Source: an uncultured Schlesneria sp.
GTDB taxonomy: Bacteria > Planctomycetota > Planctomycetia > Planctomycetales > Planctomycetaceae
DNA: 64,000 nt
Direction of reading: 5' to 3'
Assembly: GCA_903834925.1 (NCBI GenBank)
Contig: CAILLA010000128.1
Coordinates: 1 to 64,000 of the forward strand
The first letter of the stretch is position 1; each line of letters opens with the position of its first letter. The translations under genes and the position numbers were made by a program. The notes under the pieces were generated by a model that was not told where the DNA came from, made no database searches, and was given only the letters and a program-made list of their open reading frames with translations. Positions 4,434-16,201 of the stretch are shown here, in pieces.

Positions 4434-4901
4434 CTAACCAATGTGTTCCTCATCGAAGACATATTTTAGATCAAACTCGATTTGGTGTTTTCGCAATAAT
4501 GCAAGGAACTCTTCCTTGAACGACTGTTTTCGATGATGTTCTTCCTGATTGCGGATGTATGACTGCACTTTATCAACTTGCGATGAGCTCACCGAAAACG
4601 CACCGTATCCGGTCTGCCATTCAAAGCGTTGCTTGGCAGTCGTTCGTTCATTGATCCATTTCGATGAATCTGCCTTAACATCGCGAAGAACGTCCATAAT
4701 CGCATGTTTCGGGCTGAGTTTTGCAAGGATATGAATGTGGTCCGCTGTACCTCCGATCTCCAATGGAATTCCATCTCGCTTAACGAGAATTCCGCCGACG
4801 TAGGCGTAAAGATCGGACTTCAAATCAGCAGAAATTGTCGCGCGCCGATATTTTGTCGAATAAATGATGTGATAAACCAGATTCGTAAATGTATTGGACA
4901 T
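4434..4901 (-). CDS. IS200/IS605-like Y1 transposase (TnpA)
   Basis: This 155-aa protein starts MSNTFTNLVYHIIYSTKYRR, typical of TnpA_IS200. It has the HUH metal-binding pair (H55-I-H57 in TADHIHIL) and a catalytic tyrosine, Y115, in YIRNQ, with the family Gln four residues later. The length is normal and no frameshift is seen, so it could be active. Start ATG 4901 has GGAG upstream. Such enzymes move single-stranded DNA by recognising subterminal hairpins. No tnpB follows. The gene sits between element copies 3 and 4, whose hairpins could be its substrates; that link is inference. Confidence 0.92.
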   Translation of the reverse strand: MSNTFTNLVYHIIYSTKYRRATISADLKSDLYAYVGGILVKRDGIPLEIGGTADHIHILAKLSPKHAIMDVLRDVKADSSKWINERTTAKQRFEWQTGYGAFSVSSSQVDKVQSYIRNQEEHHRKQSFKEEFLALLRKHQIEFDLKYVFDEEHIG

Positions 4902-5126
4902 TTTGCGGTACTCCACGGAGTTTTAGAGTGACAGGACGAATCGACCGTTGCTCGTCTCGACTGAAGATTTTGGAATATCATAACAAAATACTCTTTATTT
5001 TCCATTAAAATAATTATGGGAAACATCGCGGGCAACGAAGATTCGTTGCGCATGCCAAACCCTGCCATTGGTCCAATACCATCATCAATTGAGAATGATG
5101 AAAAGTCGATGGTAACCGACCGGAAT

Positions 5127-5464
5127 CTCGGTCACCCCGATGGGGTTTGTGGTCGTATTTTTACGCGTCCGATCCTGGGGCGGAGGCCGCCCCAGGCTAC
5201 GCTCGGTCACCGCGATGCGGCTTAAGACACGCGGATCGCTATGCGTCTTGACACCTGTTGACTGCGTACACGGCAACAGTCTCTGGTGCAAAACGGCGGC
5301 AGGAACGTCGAATGCTCGAACGACCGCGATCGACCGTCGATCGGCCACCGATCGGCCACCTTTTTTTAGCCGCGTAGCGGCGACCGAGCATAGCCTGGGG
5401 CAGCTTCTGCCCCAGGTATCGTCAGACCAAAACCTGACAAAAAGCCCCATTCGGGGCGACCGAG
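5127..5464. repeat. 300-360 bp hairpin-rich repeat element, copy 4
   Basis: The inverted ends and both hairpins are present, slightly diverged (CCCCAGG in place of CCCCGGG in the right hairpin). The core shares CTCTGGTGCAAAACGGCGGC with copy 3. It lies about 225 bp upstream of the transposase start. The rest of 4902-5707 shows no gene. Confidence 0.83.
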
Positions 5465-5707
5465 ATTCGACGATGATCAACGCCGACAAAAAACACGTTC
5501 AAAACTTCATTTCCCGACCGCATCGATAGAGATCGTCGTTCTATGCCGGATGACCCGCCTCCGTTCAGATATTAAAAATAGCCGGAACTCTTCCTTTGCT
5601 ACTGCCGCTAATGCATAATCGCCCTCGTGGCACGGAGGTCAATTTGGCGATGGGGTGAGCTCCGAAAGGAGACTGAAATCAAACCCCATGGCGATTGGAA
5701 GTGAAAA

Positions 5708-8143
5708 ATGTCCAGTAAATCGCAGCGCAGGAAGGAACGGCACGAGCAAAAGCGCAAGGAAAAGCGAAATAAACAGGCGCAGTCACAGCGACGACCGGCT
5801 GAAATCCTGCGGACGGTCGAACTTAACGTCGGTAGTAACGCTCGACATCGACAGCGGTTGGCTCAACAAGTTCCCCGAGCCTGGCCGAATGAGACGCCAG
5901 AAGATGTCGCCGTATTTGATGATATTGTGTTCGCCACGTTGCCGCCAGAAATCGCTCAACAAGTGACAGCGGTTCGCGATGCACTGCGAGATGCAACAGA
6001 GTCACGTGGGGACGAGGCGATCAAACGGACTTCCGTGATTTCCCGCAGCAGTCCGCTCAGTGAATGGCGATTGTTCATTCGTGGGCTTGTCGATTGGCTG
6101 GCAGGCGAAACGGAACCGGCGAGCGAGTCATGGAAACGACTTGACCCCCAGCGGCGACCTGGTCGTATCGCGACAACAATGATGGTCGCATTACGCACTG
6201 ATCTCGAAGAAGTCTCTCATCCCACAGTCAACCCCGAACCGGCTGCGGCGACGAGCGAACCGGCAAACGCGACTCCAACGTTGCCATGGGACCGATGGGA
6301 CGATCAACTGCTTTACCATGCCAAACTGCTGAGGCGTGTCCGCTTTGATCGGGCCGCCTTGCGCGTCGCCGAAGCGGGCGTGAAAGTCCCTGAACCACCA
6401 CAAAAATTGCGGTTGGGGCCAAAAAAGCTGCAATGGCTAAAACAGTTTATTAAAGAGTATCGAGACACAGAACCCGATCTGACCGCCGCACTTTCGCAGA
6501 CGGCACTGGGAAGAGCTTCCGTTCAGACTTACTCTGATCTATTCGATGATGCAGCCCGGTCGTTTGCCGGCCCGCCGCACGATCCCAAGAATCAGCTGCT
6601 CACTTTTCATTATTACCGCCGTTTCGAGGATGATTTCTCGGCTGAGACAACCTCAAAGAGGGCTTTGGAACAGTATTTGAATGTTGATCTCCCTCAAAAC
6701 GAATCCCTTCCTCAACCTCTCCGCAAAGCCATCGCCAGTCAGATCCATTACTATGAAGCGATGAATTTGATGAATCCCAAAGGGGACCGCGGCGGGATGA
6801 TGGATTTCTTTTTCGACGCGCCACGCGAAGATACCAAGGGGATTCGCACACATTTCAAAGCAGCGGTCAAAGCGGCTCCCACGAATCGGCCTGCACACGT
6901 GGCTTACCACGAATGGATCGATTCCAAGCTGGACGACGAAGATCTGACGCAAGCCAAACGAGAGCCGCTCGAAAAAGAATTAGCCGAGGTGATGCGAAGC
7001 TGGTCGAAAGGTCTGCCTGAAGACGTCGAGCCGCGATTGTGGCTGGTCGATTATTTGCTCGAAAACGAGCAAATGGACGAAGCCAAGCCGCACGTCGATT
7101 TGCTGGCTGCTTGCCGCGTGGATGACCCGCGCGTCCGTGCGACGCCGTGGAAATGGCAGCTGCTTGAGGCGATGCGGTTATGTCGCCGGAAAGCATGGCT
7201 GGCCGAGGTGCCGGCGCGACTGGATGAAGCCGAAGCCGCGTGGCCAGCCTGGTTGCCGAAACAATGGCTTCCCTATTTGAGAGCTGCTTACACATTGCGA
7301 AGTGCCCAGGCCGAAGCGTTTGAAAGCCAGCGTCAGCAAGTCTGCCAGGCCAACGGCGTGGCCCGCGACTCACTGACTGACACCTGCATGATGCTGGGTG
7401 CCGCTCAGATGATGCGTGTCCCGGCGGCGGACCTTAAACCGCTACGAGCCTCCCTCGATCAAGCGTTGAAGCAAATCAAAACGTTGCCTCTCGAAGAACT
7501 GATGAAAGTCGGCGGCTTTTTCTGGGATTTGCATCGCGTGCAACTTGTCTATCCGGCGTATCGTATGCACGGAAGGAATATCGGAAAGGAAATGTTCGCT
7601 CGCATTGGACAGAATTCCAATCCAGTACTGGACGGCGTTAATGACGAGTTAGTTCAAAAGGCGATCCTGTGGGGATCAGAATATCGGTTCTGGCCGTCCG
7701 GCTATGACACAAAACAATATCCCTTTTTCTTAAACCCCGTAGTCCAGAAGCAACCGGTATTTACCGCAGCACGGGTGAACGCGTTTCTCAAAGAGCGACG
7801 TCACTGGGGATACGAGAAATATACAGGTTTGGGTCCTCTTTTACGCGAGGCAGCCCAGTCACAACGCGACGCCTATTATCGCCATTGGTTTACCAAACTG
7901 GCTGACGAACTGGACGAAATCACGGAAACCGAAAAGGCTCGGTTCGGAAGGTTCCCGTTTGGAAATTTGTTTGGAAGTATGGGTGGCGATGATGATGACG
8001 ACGAGGATGGTTTCGATCTCGACGACGACGACGACGATGATGATGATCTCGACTTCGATCCAGGCTGCTACTGCCCCGATTGCCAGGCAGCCCGATTAGC
8101 CTATGCGAATAGGCAGCAGACCAACAAAGAGACACCGTTTTAG
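5708..8143 (+). CDS. Large uncharacterised protein of the chaperone operon
   Basis: This 811-aa protein has a Lys/Arg/Gln-rich N-terminus (about residues 1-30), a long region probably built of alpha-helical hairpins and rich in Trp and Leu, an Asp-rich stretch near residues 760-785, and a C-terminal CYCPDCQAARLAYANR that could bind a metal. I do not recognise a named domain; the body resembles TPR-like or helical-repeat scaffolds. It is first in a same-strand run with J-like, GrpE-like, DnaK-like and zinc-ribbon genes, the next gene starting only 18 bp after its stop. A client-binding or scaffold role for that Hsp70 is inferred from position alone. Confidence 0.85.
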   Translation: MSSKSQRRKERHEQKRKEKRNKQAQSQRRPAEILRTVELNVGSNARHRQRLAQQVPRAWPNETPEDVAVFDDIVFATLPPEIAQQVTAVRDALRDATESRGDEAIKRTSVISRSSPLSEWRLFIRGLVDWLAGETEPASESWKRLDPQRRPGRIATTMMVALRTDLEEVSHPTVNPEPAAATSEPANATPTLPWDRWDDQLLYHAKLLRRVRFDRAALRVAEAGVKVPEPPQKLRLGPKKLQWLKQFIKEYRDTEPDLTAALSQTALGRASVQTYSDLFDDAARSFAGPPHDPKNQLLTFHYYRRFEDDFSAETTSKRALEQYLNVDLPQNESLPQPLRKAIASQIHYYEAMNLMNPKGDRGGMMDFFFDAPREDTKGIRTHFKAAVKAAPTNRPAHVAYHEWIDSKLDDEDLTQAKREPLEKELAEVMRSWSKGLPEDVEPRLWLVDYLLENEQMDEAKPHVDLLAACRVDDPRVRATPWKWQLLEAMRLCRRKAWLAEVPARLDEAEAAWPAWLPKQWLPYLRAAYTLRSAQAEAFESQRQQVCQANGVARDSLTDTCMMLGAAQMMRVPAADLKPLRASLDQALKQIKTLPLEELMKVGGFFWDLHRVQLVYPAYRMHGRNIGKEMFARIGQNSNPVLDGVNDELVQKAILWGSEYRFWPSGYDTKQYPFFLNPVVQKQPVFTAARVNAFLKERRHWGYEKYTGLGPLLREAAQSQRDAYYRHWFTKLADELDEITETEKARFGRFPFGNLFGSMGGDDDDDEDGFDLDDDDDDDDDLDFDPGCYCPDCQAARLAYANRQQTNKETPF

Positions 8144-8161
8144 TAACAAGGAATCTCACGG

Positions 8162-8503
8162 ATGAATTCTCCGACAACGACTGATCCATTTATCATCCTG
8201 GGGGTTTCTCCGAATGCAGGTGAAGCGGAAGTTCGTGCCCGGTATCTGGAACTGGTGAAGAAATATCCGCCCGAGCATGAACCGGATAAGTTTCGGGAAA
8301 TCCGGGCGGCATTCGAGGCGGCCAAGGACCCACTCTTGATCGCTAAACGCCTGGTGGCACCACCTCCTGGGGACACAGCGCCGGAATGGTCGACCGTATT
8401 GGACGTACAAAAACGGAATCCACCTCGGCTAACCCCTGCCTTCATTTTGAGTCTGGGCAATCGGGCTTCCACCGACGCAGTTCCGCTTTCCATGGCAGAC
8501 TGA
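8162..8503 (+). CDS. J-domain-like protein lacking the HPD motif
   Basis: This 113-aa protein begins DPFIILGVSPNAGEAEVRARYLELVKK and continues KFREIRAAFEAAKDP, the helix II-helix III pattern of DnaJ J domains. Where canonical proteins have YHPD it reads Y35-P-P-E38, so the HPD tripeptide that stimulates Hsp70 ATPase is missing. A Pro-rich segment follows, without G/F or zinc-finger regions. It lies between the 811-aa gene and the GrpE-like gene in one operon. It may dock on the neighbouring DnaK paralogue by another surface, or be a regulator; this is inference. Confidence 0.82.
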   Translation: MNSPTTTDPFIILGVSPNAGEAEVRARYLELVKKYPPEHEPDKFREIRAAFEAAKDPLLIAKRLVAPPPGDTAPEWSTVLDVQKRNPPRLTPAFILSLGNRASTDAVPLSMAD

Positions 8504-8551
8504 ACGGCCTGAATCAGATTTCCGAAGACATTACAACAAGACAAATGCCAC

Positions 8552-9283
8552 ATGAATGACTCTACATTTCAGCGAGATTCGAATACGCAAGCAGGTCATG
8601 CAGGTGTCCCCACGACTGACGACGTACCACAGTTTGGAGCGTTAGACATTGTCGAGGCTTTCACCGCGATGCGGCATGAATGGCGCGGTCAGACCAAAGA
8701 GAGTCTCGCACTGGCGGATCAGATTCAAGCTGCCGTGACGAGCATTCAATCGCTTGAATCAAAGCTGCTGGAGTCTGTTGAGAATACTCGTCCTGCCGGG
8801 AATGACTCCGGCGACCGCGATCAAGCCAAACCGCTTGTGCAGATCATTATCGACACCGATCATCAACTTTCCAGGGCCATCACTGCGATCACACAGTGGG
8901 AAACGAATCGTCGATTGCAAGCCGAAGCCGATGCGAAAGCGGTCGAACGGTACTTCGCCGGAATGAATGGCATGGCCCGCTGGCTGGCCCGCCCGCTAAT
9001 GACATTCGTCACCGAACAACGCGCTGCTCCTGATGCATCGGCAGAAAACCCCGCGATCAAGGGACTCGATCTGGTGCTGGCTCGGCTTCGCCGAACGATG
9101 AACGAACATGAAATTCAACGTCTCGACACCGAAGGGCAAGCGTTCGACGCAGAGACCATGCATGCGATTGGATCGGTCGCGACAACGGATTGCCCCTCGG
9201 GACACGTTGCGGAACAACTTTCACCGGCGTATCGCTGGCAAGGCCGACTCTTGCGTTTTGCCGACGTGCGACTGGCAAAATAA
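8552..9283 (+). CDS. GrpE-like nucleotide exchange factor
   Basis: The 243-aa protein has an N-terminal helical region (about residues 30-140), then GLDLVLARLRRTMNEHEIQ and a C-terminal part with EGQAFDAETMHAIGSV, CPSGHVAEQLSPAYRWQGRLLRFADVRLAK. That order matches the GrpE four-helix and beta-wing domains (F-D-P..HEA, P-G-T-V, G-Y, R-V-L-R-x-A-x-V). GrpE releases ADP from DnaK. Sequence outside these motifs is strongly diverged. Position between J-like and DnaK-like genes supports the call. An ATG start at 8552 leaves a 48-bp gap to the gene before. Confidence 0.8.
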   Translation: MNDSTFQRDSNTQAGHAGVPTTDDVPQFGALDIVEAFTAMRHEWRGQTKESLALADQIQAAVTSIQSLESKLLESVENTRPAGNDSGDRDQAKPLVQIIIDTDHQLSRAITAITQWETNRRLQAEADAKAVERYFAGMNGMARWLARPLMTFVTEQRAAPDASAENPAIKGLDLVLARLRRTMNEHEIQRLDTEGQAFDAETMHAIGSVATTDCPSGHVAEQLSPAYRWQGRLLRFADVRLAK

Positions 9284-9331
9284 AACCGAGATTGAATAGA
9301 CAATTTCCATAAAGCAATAAAGGAGTATTTC

Positions 9332-11149
9332 ATGGCCGACAGTCAAGATCCGATCGTCGGGATCGACCTGGGAACCACCAACAGCGTGGTGGCAATCGTG
9401 ATTGATGGAAAGGCCCAGGTCCTGGAAGAAGCGGGAGAAAAACTGCTCCCTTCGGTGGTCGGAATCAACCCGCAGGGACAGCTCGTTACAGGAGTTGCCG
9501 CACGGAATCAACTTGCGGCCTTTCCAGATCATACGATCGCCTCGATCAAACGGAAGATGGGAACGATGGACCCCGTATCGCTTGGCGATCAGAAATTTAC
9601 TCCGCCGGAAATCAGCGCCATGATTCTGCGCCGATTGCGTGACCGGGCCAGCCGCGCGATCGGCCAGCAGGTGAACCGGGCCGTGATCACTGTCCCTGCT
9701 TTTTTCGATGAAAACCAGCGTCAGGCGACTCGTGAAGCGGCGGCACTCGCGGGACTGACGGCGGAACGCATCATCAACGAACCAACCGCCGCGACGCTGG
9801 TGTATCACGCCGGTTCGCACGATCGCAAACAGATTGCCGTCTATGATTTCGGCGGGGGGACGTTCGACGTCTCCATCGTCCGGATGGAAGCTGGCGTGAT
9901 TGAAGTGCTCAGCAGTCGCGGCGATGTCCATCTGGGGGGCGACGATCTCGACCAGGTGTTAGTCAACCACATCGCTGACAAGTTTCAGACCGAGCATGGA
10001 GTGAACTTGCGCGAGAGCTCCCACTCGCGATTCCGCTTGTTGCAGGCGTGTGAGGCGGCCAAATGCCGACTCTCTACGGAAGAAACCGTGCAGATTACCG
10101 AGGAATTTATTACCGAAAAGGCTGGCCAGCCCCTGCATCTGACCACAACGATCACTCGAAAAGAGTTTGAAATGATGATCGAACCGTTCGTGGAACGGAC
10201 GATCCAGAGCCTTGATGAAGCGCTGCGCGAGGCACGGGTGACGATCCATCAATTGGATGACCTGGTGCTGGTGGGAGGTTCGACGCGGATTCCGCTGGTG
10301 GAAGAACGTCTGCGTGAAGAATTTCAGCGAGAACCGAGCCGGGCGGTCGACCCGGATCTGGCGGTCGCACTGGGTGCCGCTGTCCAGGCGGCCATGATTG
10401 AAGGCCGATCAGTCGGGCCGGTTCTGGTCGACGTGACGGGACACACGCTGGGAATTGAAGCGTGTGAAGCGATGACATACGCGGGACCGCAATTGGTCTT
10501 TTCCCCGATTATTCATCGGAATACGCCGCTGCCAGCACGCTATGAACAAGCCTATTCAACGATGTACGAGGATCAGGAGGAGGTGGAAATCCACGTGCTG
10601 CAAGGGGAACGGCCCGAGGTCCATCGCAACCAATCGATTGGAAAGTTTCGGCTGGAACTCAAAGATGCCAGTGGAGATCGAAGTAAGATCGTGGTTCGGT
10701 TCGATTTGACCCTGGACGGTGTCCTGAAAGTCACCGCGACTCAACCCGCAACTGGTGTCAGTCACGTGCTGACGATTAACAATGCACTCAGTCAGTTCCA
10801 GGCGGACGAACGAGTCCGAGCGGAATCACGTCTGGGTGCGATGTTCAACGCTTCGGACGAATTCTTTGACGAAGGCGAGCACCCTACCTCAATCCAGTGG
10901 GAAGCCGACGAGTTGGCATTGGAGCCGACCGCGACATCCGTCGATTCTGAGACTGCTGCACTGAGGTTTCCCGAGGCCGTTGCGCTCCTGAAGAAAGCAG
11001 AATCACTGAAATCGTCTGTCGATGGCGAGGATGCAGAGGATCTGGAGTCAATTTGCGAGAATCTGATAAATGCCATGACCAGCGACGATGCTGCGGCCGT
11101 GGCAGGTCTCAGTGCAGAACTGGATGATTTGTTATTCTATGTCCGATGA
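9332..11149 (+). CDS. Hsp70 family protein (DnaK paralogue)
   Basis: This 605-aa protein has the full ATPase signature set: VGIDLGTTNSVVAI near the N-terminus, RAVITVPAFFDENQRQAT, INEPTAATLVYH, VYDFGGGTFDVSIV and LVLVGGSTRIPLV. A DnaK-like substrate-binding beta domain follows (HTLGIEA, RNTPLPARYEQAYST, VLQGERPEVHRN, FRLELKD). The C-terminal lid is short and lacks the usual disordered DnaK tail. It is preceded by dedicated J-like and GrpE-like genes, so it looks like a specialised chaperone rather than the main DnaK. AAAGGAG sits before the ATG. Its end overlaps the next gene by 11 bp. Confidence 0.93.
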   Translation: MADSQDPIVGIDLGTTNSVVAIVIDGKAQVLEEAGEKLLPSVVGINPQGQLVTGVAARNQLAAFPDHTIASIKRKMGTMDPVSLGDQKFTPPEISAMILRRLRDRASRAIGQQVNRAVITVPAFFDENQRQATREAAALAGLTAERIINEPTAATLVYHAGSHDRKQIAVYDFGGGTFDVSIVRMEAGVIEVLSSRGDVHLGGDDLDQVLVNHIADKFQTEHGVNLRESSHSRFRLLQACEAAKCRLSTEETVQITEEFITEKAGQPLHLTTTITRKEFEMMIEPFVERTIQSLDEALREARVTIHQLDDLVLVGGSTRIPLVEERLREEFQREPSRAVDPDLAVALGAAVQAAMIEGRSVGPVLVDVTGHTLGIEACEAMTYAGPQLVFSPIIHRNTPLPARYEQAYSTMYEDQEEVEIHVLQGERPEVHRNQSIGKFRLELKDASGDRSKIVVRFDLTLDGVLKVTATQPATGVSHVLTINNALSQFQADERVRAESRLGAMFNASDEFFDEGEHPTSIQWEADELALEPTATSVDSETAALRFPEAVALLKKAESLKSSVDGEDAEDLESICENLINAMTSDDAAAVAGLSAELDDLLFYVR

Positions 11150-11357
11150 ACCCAGCTTCCGTTGTCCCGTCTGCCGCGCCACTCAGACCCTGCGCGAAAC
11201 CTGTCGCCGGTGTCAGGCAGACTTGAGTCTGGTGGTGCGAGCCCATCGCAGGTTGGCCTATTTGAAACACCTGCATGCGCAAACACTGGCCAACAGCGAT
11301 CTTGAGAGCGCAGAGCAGTTTGTGGCTGAGCTACGCTGGCTTGCGCCGTCTCGCTGA
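11139..11357 (+). CDS. Small zinc-ribbon protein after the DnaK paralogue
   Basis: This 72-aa protein has the CPVC and CRRC pairs 13 residues apart near its N-terminus, a rubredoxin-like zinc knuckle, followed by an Arg/Leu/Ala-rich helix (HRRLAYLKHLHAQ). The start codon overlaps the end of the DnaK paralogue by 11 bp, so the two are probably translationally coupled. The role is unknown. Joint regulation with the chaperone genes is likely. It could be a client adaptor, but nothing in the sequence proves that. The 265 bp after it hold no visible feature. Confidence 0.78.
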   Translation: MSDEPSFRCPVCRATQTLRETCRRCQADLSLVVRAHRRLAYLKHLHAQTLANSDLESAEQFVAELRWLAPSR

Positions 11358-11622
11358 CCAACGGTCTCTGGTCGACACTCACAACGATAAGTCCAGTCAA
11401 AAAACTTCTCGTTTTTTGCAATGCGGATGGTTCGACCGACTGGCCGAAGTTTGTTAAAACAACAATCGGTATGATTGAAATTCGTCGTTCGCTAATGGAC
11501 CGAAATTCATATGAAATTGATATTGTCTTAACATTAATCGCGATGATCGGGGTCATCATTCCTGGCGAGGTTTTGCAAACGTCGGAGCGTACGAATGGTT
11601 CGTCATGCAGAGGATTTTCCGA

Positions 11623-12504
11623 ATGACGGCACGAATTCTCATTGTTGACGACTCGCCGATTGATCGAAGGCTGGTCGAATTCTTCTTGAGAAAAGGGATC
11701 GTCGACGCTTCGGTATCGAGCACTGACAACGGCCAAAAGGCGCTCGACGTGATTATTTCCGAAATTCCAGACCTCATCATCACCGATCTGCAAATGCCCG
11801 GGATGAACGGATTGGAATTTGTGGAACATCTCCAAGCTCGAAGATGCATGATACCGGTGATCCTGTTGACGGGTGCAGGTACCCAAGAGATGGCCGTTCA
11901 CGCTCTGAAAACAGGAGCCGTCAATTACGTTCCGAAAGGGGGCATCGACAAGCATCTGGTCGAGACCGTCAAACACGTTCTGTCATTGTCTCAATGGCAA
12001 CGGAATCCGAGTCGAGGACTCACAACTCTCGATCTTCTTGAATCACACTTCACACTGGAAAATGACGCTTCCTTGATTTCTCCACTGATCGCCTATTTGC
12101 AAGAGCAACTCGAAGCGGTTCGGTTTTCCGATCAATTGCAAATCATCCGGATTGGAATGGCCATTTACGAATCGCTGACGAACGCGATTTTTCAAGGTAA
12201 TCTGGAACTTCGGCAAACGGATGAAGCCTTTTTTTTGCATTTCGCGATGGAACGTCATCGGGTTGAACCGTATGCTTCACGGCGCGTCCGATTGACATCT
12301 CGTCTTTCCGGCACAGAAGCCTGCTTTGTCGTGACCGATGATGGCTTAGGTGATAACCCGTTAGAAAGGCAAAGCCCAACCAGCGAAATGAACTTGGAAC
12401 AGATTGGAGGACGCGGACAGTTACTGATCCACAGTTTTATGGACGAAGTGACTCAAAACTCGAAGGGGAACGAAATCACGATGACCAAACGGTTTCTGCC
12501 ATAG
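11623..12504 (+). CDS. Response regulator with C-terminal ATPase (anti-sigma-like) domain
   Basis: This 293-aa protein starts with a CheY-like receiver: [12 protein letters not shown], phospho-acceptor D55 in [18 protein letters not shown] and VPKGG. A linker leads to a GHKL/HATPase domain with an N-box ([15 protein letters not shown]), a G1 box (TDDGLGDN) and a G2-like [15 protein letters not shown], as in RsbW/SpoIIAB-like kinases. The ATG at 11623 (MTARILIV) is preferred to 11605. The combination suggests phosphorylation-controlled binding to a partner such as an anti-anti-sigma factor. It lies 31 bp before a hybrid kinase gene on the same strand, its likely partner. Confidence 0.88.
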
Positions 12505-12535
12505 AATTCAGTGTCGTCAACAGCAGTCGCTAACA

Positions 12536-15500
12536 ATGCATTCTGAGGGCCAGACACGCATGAACCAATTGCTTAAGATCATGTCCAGTTCCAGTTCCAG
12601 TTCCGACGAATTCTTCTCGACCGCACGAGGTCGACAGCTCGCCCTGGAACAACGGACTCGTCAATATCGGTTCACCGACCGCTTACTCGCTTGTTTGCTC
12701 GCTTGTGAATTTGTCGCGGGGATTGCGACGGCATTATGGATTTCGCCGTATGCGTGGGCAGGTCTGGACCGGCAATTGCACCCGCATGTCCTGGCAGCAG
12801 TGTTACTCGGATCGCTGATCATCAGCTTTCCAATTTTTCTGGCGAAATTTCATGCGGGAATGCCACACACAAGGCACATTATCGCCATCGCTCAGATGCT
12901 GATGGCCGGCTTACTAATTCACCTCACAGGTGGTCGGATTGAGACTCACTTTATTGTGTTTGGGTCACTCGCTTTTCTGATGTTTTACCGGGATTGGCGG
13001 GTTCTGATTACCGCATCGTTCGTGACCGCGACGGACCATCTCGTGCGAGGGTATGTCTGGCCGGTCTCCATTTACGGCGACGAAGTATTGAGTCACTGGC
13101 GGTGGATCGAACACTCGGGCTGGGTGATTTTCGAGGACATTTTCCTGATTTTTGCCTGTCTGCAAAGTATTCGCGAGACAAATCTGATCGCTGAACGGCA
13201 AAGTCAGCTGGAAACCACCAACGAAATTGTTGAAACCGAAGTTTACCAGCGAACGGCCGAGATCACTCGAAATCAATTATCGCTTAGAGACAGCGAACAG
13301 CGAATGCGGGCCATTCTCGATGCGGCAGTCGACGCTGTGATTACGATCGATGGTCGAGGCATCATCGAATCTGCGAATCCTGCGACCGAGCGACTGTTCG
13401 GCTATCCTCCGATGGAATTGGTCGGGAAAAACATCAACATGCTGATGCCCGCTCCGTTTCGCGCCGAACATGACGGTTATCTGGCTCGATACCAGTTATC
13501 GGGAGAAAAACATGTGATCGGGATTGGCCGCGAAGTTGACGGCATTCGCAAAGACGGAACCATTTTTCATGCGGAACTCACCGTCAGCGAAGTCGAATTA
13601 GATAACGGTCGTATCTTCACGAGCTTTGTTCGCGACATTACTGACCGCATGCGATTTGCCGCCGCTCTCAGGGAGCGGACGATGTTGTCCGAATTGACGG
13701 GCAGGATTGGAATGGCACTCACGACGAGCGGTCCCCTGCAAGAAACTTTGCAGGCTTGCGCTGATGCGATCATTCTTCACCTTGATGCGGCGTTCGTTCG
13801 TATCTGGACGATCTCGGAACCTGGTGACCTTCTCGAATTGCAGGCAAGTGCTGGACTTTATACTCATCTGAATGGAACACACGCTCGAATCCAGATCGGT
13901 CAATTCAAGATTGGCAAGATTGCAAAGGAACGAAAACCTCATTTGACCAACGATGTCTTAAGCGAATCCGATGACGAAGAACGAGAATGGGCACGACGAG
14001 AGGGGTTGGTTTCTTTCGCGGGTCACCCGCTCATCGTCGAAAATCGACTGGTCGGGGTCATGGGAATGTATGCCTGGCACCCTTTGTCTGAGACCGCATT
14101 CTCAACCCTTACGTCCATTGCCGATGGGATCAGCCTTGGTATCGAACGCAAATTTTCTGATGTCACAGTGAAACGTGCACTCGTCGCGGCTGAACACGCC
14201 AACCGGGCAAAAAGCGAATTCCTCGCCAACATGAGTCACGAGATCCGTACGCCAATGAATGGCATCATCGGAATGGCGGATCTGGCTCTCGATACACCGT
14301 TGAATGCCGAGCAGCGGGAGTATCTGGACGCGGTGAAGTCGTCCGCCGATTCGCTACTACGCATCATCAATGACATTCTGGATTTTTCGAAGGTTGAGTC
14401 CGGCAAATTTGAACTTGACCCACAGCCATTCCAGCTACGCGAATCGTTGGGCGAAACGATGAAAACACTTGCCGCCCGCGCTCATGAAAAGAACCTCGAA
14501 CTTTATTGGCATATTGCAACCGACATTCCCGATTGGCTTGTCGGGGATGCGGGACGCCTTCGACAGGTTCTGGTCAACCTCGTCGGCAATGCCATCAAAT
14601 TCACCGAACAAGGTGAGGTTGGCGTCATGGTCGAACTTGCCAGTCGGACGGAATCGAATGCTACGTTGCATTTCTCTGTGCGGGATACCGGTATTGGGAT
14701 TCCGCCGGATAAGCAGTCGATCATTTTCGAGCCATTTTCTCAAGCAGACATTTCCACGACCCGCTCATACGGTGGGACCGGATTGGGCCTTTCCATTTCC
14801 AAACAGCTTGTCCAGTTGATGGGCGGTGAAATGGCTTTGACCAGCACTGAAAATGAAGGAAGTACGTTCTATTTTACAATCGAATTCCCGGTGGCGGTCG
14901 CTCCAGCCGAAGCCACTAATACCAGTTCGTCGGTTGAACTGGATGGATTGCGGGTTTTGGTCGTCGATGACAACCCCACCAATCGGCGAATTCTGGAAGA
15001 AGTACTGAAGAGCTGGAAAATGATTCCGACGCTCGCGGACGGCGGGCCCGCTGGACTGGAGGAATTGCACAAGGCCGCGAATGAAAACAAACTATTCGAC
15101 CTGATCCTGACTGATTGCCACATGCCCAAGATGGACGGTTTCATGTTCGTTGAAGAACTGAAAAAGTTCCCTGAGCTTGCTCGTTCTGTCATCATGATGC
15201 TGACTTCATCTGACCGGCAGGGGGCCAATGCGCATTGCCGCGACCTCGGCATATCGGCGACCCTTTTAAAACCGCTGAAGCAGTCAGAGTTGCGAGAAAC
15301 AATCATCAATTCACTTGGCCTGAAAGATCGGGATCAGACTGGTCTGGCAGCTGTTCGATTAATCGCCGAGCCAGTGCCAATTCAACGGCTTCGAGTCCTA
15401 TTGGCGGAAGATAATTTGATCAATCAGCGAGTGGCGACTCGGTTTCTGAACAAGCTTGGCCACACGGTTCAGGTTGTTGAAAACGGTCAAAAGGCGATCG

Positions 15501-16201
15501 AGGCATTACAGTCGGATGAATTCGACGTTGTCCTGATGGATATCCAAATGCCTGTCATGGATGGCTTCAAAGCGACGGCCCTCATTCGCCAACAGGAAGA
15601 ACTGACAGGACGCCACATTCCGGTGATCGCCATGACCGCTTACGCAATGTCTGGAGACCGTGAACGCTGTCTCGCTGCTGGCATGGACGATTATGTCAGC
15701 AAGCCGATCAATGAAACTTCCGTTGCCAAAGCGTTTTCTCTTTTGCAAAAATACAATCGTTCGCCGATCGAAGTGCAAGGCGTCCTCCCGACCAGCGAGT
15801 CACTGGAGATCGAATCGGGACCGCCAGCCGTCGATTTTCAGGCAGCGCTCGAAAAATTCGACGGTGACAGTGGATTCATGAATGAGATTTGTCAATTAAT
15901 CCTCGATTCAACTCCGGAATTAACCGCCTCTCTGAAATCGGCTGTCGAACAACAAGACTGCGAAGCGGCAGGCAAAGCCGTCCATACGATCAAAGGAAGC
16001 GTCTCGAATCTCTGTGCCGACCCGGCTTACCAGGCGGCGAATCGATTGGAGCAGATTTGCCTGAACCACGAAACGGCTCAACTTGCAAACGGTTATCAGG
16101 ATTTGATTCGTCAGATCGACCGGCTGATGGCCGCGTTAAAAAATCGCCTGGCGAACTCTGATATCGACGTTAGCAGTGTCGGAGCTGCGCCAGCAGTCTA
16201 A
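12536..16201 (+). CDS. Membrane hybrid sensor histidine kinase (PAS-GAF-HisKA-HATPase-REC-REC-Hpt)
   Basis: This 1221-aa protein has several N-terminal membrane helices (about residues 45-220), a PAS domain ([17 protein letters not shown]), a GAF domain (about 400-545), HisKA with H568 in [15 protein letters not shown], HATPase boxes ([23 protein letters not shown]), two receivers with D860 ([10 protein letters not shown]) and D1002 ([10 protein letters not shown]), and an Hpt domain with H1150 in HTIKGS. All phosphorelay residues are present, so an intact His-Asp-His-Asp relay is expected. The signal is unknown. The preceding receiver-ATPase gene may receive the phosphoryl group; this is inference from position. 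An N-terminal poly-Ser run ([10 protein letters not shown]) is unusual. Confidence 0.95.

Follow-up and report, generated by a model that had tools for sequence, protein, structure and literature searches.

Accessory Hsp70 sets, J-domain proteins without the HPD motif and small zinc-ribbon partners of Hsp70 are all already known. J-domain function is considered to require the HPD motif. In the available part of a 2026 review (PMC13254874), replacements in HPD are described as abolishing stimulation, HPE apart, Pam16 is cited as inhibitory and a designed J analogue without HPD is reported to stimulate Hsc70; whether deviations from HPD are accidental or selected is called enigmatic there. The docking contacts given in the accessible sections of another review (PMC8215388) are those of DnaJ H33 with the DnaK L391 backbone, of P34 with P419 and of D35 with R167 and Q378. 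In the available texts on individual systems, MxDnaK2 (SglK) of M. xanthus shares its operon with a dedicated GrpE, MXAN_6672, the main DnaK being separate (PMC11019930), the cyanobacterial accessory Hsp70 system DnaK1–DnaJ3 has links with type IV pili and with polysaccharide (PMC9239167), and Ruc (Rv0991c) is a small protein that carries a zinc ribbon and acts together with DnaK (PMC7448276). No description of the five-gene module analysed below was found in the open PMC literature, including the accessible portions of PMC8265645 and PMC12316311.

Gene content and layout of the operon

Inspection of the open reading frames in the window, the whole 64,000-nucleotide stretch of DNA that was analysed, placed five plus-strand genes in a tight run at positions 5708–11357, in the order T-J-E-K-Z:

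T, 5708–8143, plus strand: 811 aa; predicted TPR-solenoid protein with a basic N-terminus, an acidic tail and a C-terminal CxCxxC (CYCPDC)
J, 8162–8503, plus strand: 113 aa; J-domain without HPD, with YPPE instead (PF00226, profile alignment, motif counts)
E, 8552–9283, plus strand: 243 aa; GrpE family, with a family-specific N-terminal half (PF01025, model, structural matches)
K, 9332–11149, plus strand: 605 aa; Hsp70 paralogue (PF00012, below the DnaK equivalog cut-offs, separate clade)
Z, 11139–11357, plus strand: 72 aa; zinc ribbon with Cys, Arg and Asp residues invariant among relatives

The intergenic gaps were 18 nt (T/J), 48 nt (J/E) and 48 nt (E/K), and K and Z overlapped by 11 nt, the start of Z being an internal ATG of an 89-aa ORF listed from 11088.

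Directly 3′ of Z and on the same strand, Pfam matches identified a response regulator with HATPase_c_2 and a 1221-aa hybrid histidine kinase (11605–16201); these two genes are outside the conserved block. An IS200/IS605-type Y1 transposase gene (4434–4916, minus strand) lies immediately upstream, on the opposite strand to the operon. No CIRCE element was found in the window, the sites returned by a promoter scan were no commoner than in shuffles, and the PHROGs and PADLOC searches gave no match indicating a phage or defence system.

Distribution and conserved gene order

The module was surveyed in planctomycete genomes by class and phylum, in plasmids (J, Z) and in phages (K). Among 59 relatives, the genome of the window (G000) included, T was present in 12 and Z in 14; 12 genomes had both, none had T only, two had Z only and 45 had neither (Fisher p 8e-11, uncorrected for relatedness). 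Both Z-only matches were weak, one at E 0.002 and holding two stops, the other at E 0.008. A second, divergent GrpE (55–64 bits) was found in 12/12 T-positive genomes of this set. With only 12/59 positive, most relatives lack the module, which is therefore dispensable. Within the window's genus, two of the 14 other members carried the close form (G007, G013), one the distant form (G010) and 11 none, and this patchiness suggests frequent loss or transfer.

A class-wide search matched 32/148 genomes at E ≤ 0.01, from which matches below 21 bits in G059, G044 and G170 were left out, as was a 58-bit match in G134 at a locus with a frame-broken remnant and no gene of the module. The remnant (L070, approximately 5400–5600) is Z-like and may mark a lost module. 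Z scored above 50 bits in 28/148 genomes of the class and was accompanied by at least one further module gene in 28/28, several of these having a contig end inside the module or parts on separate contigs (G127, G051, G115, G152). The phylum-wide search matched 13/246 genomes, G000 included, at E ≤ 1e-6. Among the 12 other loci from this search, seven had TJEKZ (including L126, with overlapping ORF calls), L118 had TJE, K in two pieces and Z, and one genome had the order KZTJE (G301; L125); L120 and L122 stop at contig edges, and G213 (L127) holds a distant variant in which K and E are weak. One further locus came from a named record, a Fuerstiella sp. MAG (L024).

Profiles run on all ORFs gave T-J-E-K-Z on one strand in 30 distinct genomes, that of the window included. 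Overlaps of 4 nt between genes were frequent among these loci, and the outer flanks mostly differed between loci while the five genes stayed together. In four genomes TJEK were together with Z distant (G064, G125, G160, G164), and in two JEKZ were together with T distant (G132, G168). All five parts were thus found in six genomes with broken linkage, which argues for a shared function. T-J-E-K-Z is a real module, with an order beyond chance. Outside the planctomycetes, J gave only partial J-domain matches on plasmids, including a Paracoccus Hsp70–J pair (L115) whose 747-aa J protein had a weak and partial J match; Z had no match on plasmids, and K gave only generic DnaK-like matches in phages, below 60% identity.

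K is an accessory Hsp70 distinct from canonical DnaK

K matched PF00012 at 479 bits (cut-off 20.6) over residues 8–582 of 605, corresponding to a full-length NBD and SBD, and carries both ATPase signatures, GIDLGTTNS and VYDFGGGTFD. It scored below the equivalog cut-offs for DnaK (TIGR02350, 497 vs 822.55 bits; NF001413, 512 vs 648) and for HscA (TIGR01991, 418 vs 708.55 bits). The window's own genome (9.02 Mb, 307 contigs) had 11 Hsp70-family matches; the best, a canonical dnaK located elsewhere, scored 853 bits and K scored 470. One canonical DnaK per genome exceeded the TIGR02350 cut-off in 8/8 genomes with the module and 3/3 others searched, and the module K was additional to it in the same 8/8 (479–527 bits, TIGR02350). 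The canonical grpE is apart from the module and adjoins a DnaJ with intact HPD (L081).

A tree of 60 Hsp70s placed the 33 module Ks in one clade (support 100/99) and grouped the 11 canonical DnaKs apart from them (support 95/97); this separate grouping indicates that K represents a separate old Hsp70 line. Most module Ks have a nearly flush C-terminus, formed by the short aromatic motif LFYL or one like it, unlike canonical DnaKs, which end in a longer low-complexity tail.

These results bear out much of the original prediction, made from the window alone. The five co-encoded genes, with Z overlapping K, are confirmed by the ORFs and the conserved order. The proposal of an accessory set beside the main DnaK agrees with the distinct K clade and with the separate canonical dnaK in every genome tested, and the five genes do co-occur in other planctomycetes beside it (30 genomes with the order, 8/8 with DnaK). 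The prediction had named two findings that would count against it, namely that this was the only DnaK or that the flanking genes varied freely. Canonical dnaK was found in the window's genome and all 11 others searched, and the five-gene order was conserved while the outer flanks mostly differed.

Residues of K at the J docking site

K residue numbers were placed on the alignment by motif, following the E. coli sequence. R167, T173, Q378, L391 and D393 were kept in 33/33 module Ks, as was P419 (33/33). Near the interdomain linker, L392 was replaced by V or I (33/33), L397 by H (33/33) and T417 by P (29/33). Residue 397 was L in 11/11 canonical DnaKs and H in 8/16 other Hsp70 paralogues, and L397H was accordingly rejected as a signature of the module Ks only. 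Of the residues numbered here, the available text of PMC8215388 names only R167, Q378, L391 and P419.

J has a J-domain without the HPD histidine

J matched PF00226 at 28.9 bits against a cut-off of 27.8, and the J-domain profile matched 31/31 relatives of J at E ≤ 0.01. In the profile alignment to DnaJ chains, ‘qfPPe’ of J lay over ‘qyHPD’ without a gap. The motif was readable in 31 of 32 J proteins and unreadable in one, and a later count covered 39 readable and two unreadable sequences. Histidine was present at the HPD position in 0/39 readable J proteins once other classes had been added, its replacements being P in 31, S in six, T in one and G in one. The proline of HPD was kept in 31/31 readable J proteins and D/E likewise in 31/31; the pattern used for the 39 sequences requires P at position two, so the conservation of the proline rests on the count of 31. 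In a few members, such as L033 and L116, an H stands one residue earlier, and for these a shifted reading of HPD is conceivable.

The ratio pN/pS for J was 0.35 between the window and L025, 0.11 between L057 and L058 and 0.36 between L055 and L056. These values (0.11–0.36 in three pairs) indicate that the J domain is under constraint by purifying selection. By its profile matches, J also retains the J-domain fold.

E and Z proteins

E matched PF01025 at 64.6 bits (cut-off 25.8) in its C-terminal half, and the GrpE profile matched 31/31 of its relatives. The model of E (mean pLDDT 81.2) has a GrpE head with long helices, and GrpE chains were its best matches in the structure search. The N-terminal stretch is conserved and family-specific.

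In Z, residues C9, P10, C12, C22, R23, R24, C25 and D28 were invariant in 34/34 sequences, and the pattern CPxC-x9-CRRC-xxD was likewise found in 34/34. The Z of the window had only sub-threshold matches to Pfam zinc ribbons. It is not a Ruc/FmdB ribbon, having CxxC-x9-CxxC rather than CxxC-N17-CxxC and scoring 12.1 bits against a TIGR02605 cut-off of 31.3. The longer relatives of Z matched TPR models weakly, and a TPR-like extension was present in many.

A signalling gene lies 3′ of Z on the same strand in 8/34 Z loci (the window, L032, L035, L050, L059, L066, L069 and L071), and these genes differ in type. In four loci Z is followed by a response-regulator protein of 410–430 aa (L066, 3226–5801; L069, 3158–5480; L071, 10527–12045; L035, 10578–12978), and a subtilase-like gene comes next in L066, L069 and L035, identified by Pfam for L069 only. 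In L066 and L071 Z is apart from TJEK and beside the response regulator, so Z may have a second role.

T protein

The T of the window had a sub-threshold match to TPR_19 (18.6 bits vs cut-off 25). For the T family (A8), TPR_19 matched 17/31 members and the best E value for TPR_2 was 6.7e-14. The model of T is an all-helical solenoid with a mean pLDDT of 80.8, which matched TPR and other helical-repeat chains with score Z up to 11.6, a level that the comparison tool calls common for repeats; no specific structural relative stood out in this comparison. Of the five proteins T is the largest and the least conserved. Between its two main forms conservation is poor (15–19% identity to the T of the window), and its best-conserved stretch is short (residues approximately 66–153). 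An added CxCxxC motif was found in the close T group. An acidic stretch near the end (at least eight acidic residues in 15) was present in 16/31 relatives, the T of the window not counted, and an acidic tail was therefore ruled out as a defining feature of T.

The TPR solenoid fold commonly binds partner proteins. By its profile matches and model, T belongs to a TPR-solenoid family, for which a role as adaptor or scaffold would be likelier than one as client.

Other Hsp70 loci

A second accessory Hsp70 line was noticed, in which a K gene is followed first by a gene of 242–322 aa and next by one for a J-like protein of 531–561 aa with KPE at the HPD position. Its loci are L082 (7910–12232, in the window's own genome, G000:C173), L128 (3911–8081) and L129 (3331–7945), and the three-gene order was common to 3/3 genomes examined. 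At L079 (5746–13101), the gene after two adjacent Hsp70 paralogues encodes a protein of 1076 aa that combines a double zinc ribbon with weak TPR matches and so parallels T and Z in fused form.

Proposed function and alternative explanations

The module probably encodes a dedicated accessory Hsp70 machine, separate from canonical DnaK/DnaJ/GrpE, in which the J-domain would be either rewired or a pseudo J-domain and a TPR protein would be the adaptor. In such a machine K would be the ATP-driven chaperone and E would reset it through nucleotide exchange. J would dock on K through its retained P-(D/E) and K residues R167 and Q378, without the HPD histidine, and T (often acidic-tailed) and Z (often with a TPR-like end) would recruit specific clients to K, or link it to a cellular site. 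We infer that the five proteins may assemble into a single complex, that the choice of client may lie with T and Z and that J may still work on K, whether it is a rewired activator or a tether that gives no stimulation. Weighing against the machine, the loss of HPD could mean that J has no action on K; the dispensability of the module, the poor conservation of T between its two main forms and the loci in which Z stands apart count against it too. This loss was absent from the original account, and the operon described there as complete is so by gene count only, its J lacking the motif. Likewise, T and Z, described as unknown partners, belong to families with TPR and zinc-ribbon signatures and are not altogether unknown; the window's own copies have sub-threshold Pfam matches. 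Of the suggestion that T is a client or scaffold, the scaffold or adaptor half fits a TPR-solenoid family better and the client half is less likely.

Tentatively, J may activate the Hsp70 encoded with it despite having no HPD histidine, the loss of HPD being evolved wiring rather than decay, as the J–K pair, with K changed beside the docking site, has been kept across the phylum. It is about as likely, and as open to doubt, that within this machine J is a pseudo-J of type IV, like Pam16, which binds K or another J-domain protein without triggering ATP hydrolysis; a general DnaJ or the substrate would then drive K, and J would be a brake or an anchor. The replacement of HPD in every readable J is consistent with this, as are the inhibitory Pam16 and the abolished stimulation by replaced motifs, HPE apart, in the available part of PMC13254874, where the designed HPD-less analogue that stimulates Hsc70 nevertheless points the other way. 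The genome also keeps a canonical HPD-bearing DnaJ beside grpE (L081), which could serve as the general DnaJ of a pseudo-J arrangement. However, a mere anchor would have no need of the P and D/E that J has kept, nor of their partners R167, Q378 and P419 in K.

It is unlikely that T is instead the main client, an aggregation-prone or large helical protein for whose folding alone the other four genes would exist. The gene for T always accompanies the others, adjacent to them or within the same set, and T is their largest and least conserved partner, as a client might be, but its family has a fold that commonly binds partners, TPR folds are usually stable, and its conserved stretch is short, as a binding surface would be. 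Less likely again is that the five genes are a neighbourhood co-inherited by operon transfer, with J, T or Z acting in another process such as signalling. The patchy distribution and the signalling gene 3′ of Z in 8/34 Z loci would fit such a neighbourhood, but the signalling genes vary in type, and the six genomes that hold all parts with broken linkage indicate co-occurrence beyond neighbourhood.

Comparison with known systems

The module shares with the canonical DnaK-DnaJ-GrpE system the Hsp70, J-domain and GrpE families and the J-contact residues of K. It differs in its separate locus, in a K below the DnaK equivalog cut-off, in a J without HPD and without further DnaJ domains, and in the added TPR and zinc-ribbon genes. 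MxDnaK2 resembles it in being accessory to a separate main DnaK and in sharing an operon with a dedicated GrpE, but in the available text of PMC11019930 that operon is bicistronic with no neighbouring J gene, whereas the module has five genes, including J, T and Z. Cyanobacterial DnaK1 is likewise an accessory Hsp70, and a J protein is its dedicated partner; in the accessible sections of PMC9239167, however, dnaK1 lies between grpE and dnaJ11 while its working partner is DnaJ3, and a sole GrpE is common to the main system and DnaK1. Ruc, as described in the available part of PMC7448276, is like Z a small zinc-ribbon protein, but has CxxC-N17-CxxC, whereas the spacing in Z is CxxC-x9-CxxC, its second pair reads CRRC and many of its relatives end in a TPR-like extension. 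With the module, TPR and zinc-ribbon proteins would join the known accessory factors of bacterial Hsp70.

Type IV or pseudo-J proteins such as Pam16, as presented in the accessible sections of PMC13254874, resemble J in having HPD replaced within a J-domain. Unlike them, J is co-encoded with what is likely its own Hsp70 and GrpE and has lost the H while keeping P and D/E phylum-wide. An HPD-less J in one operon with its likely partner Hsp70 and GrpE, across a phylum, makes the question of whether such loss is selected or accidental testable, and the module is a test case for how Hsp70 chaperones are switched on.
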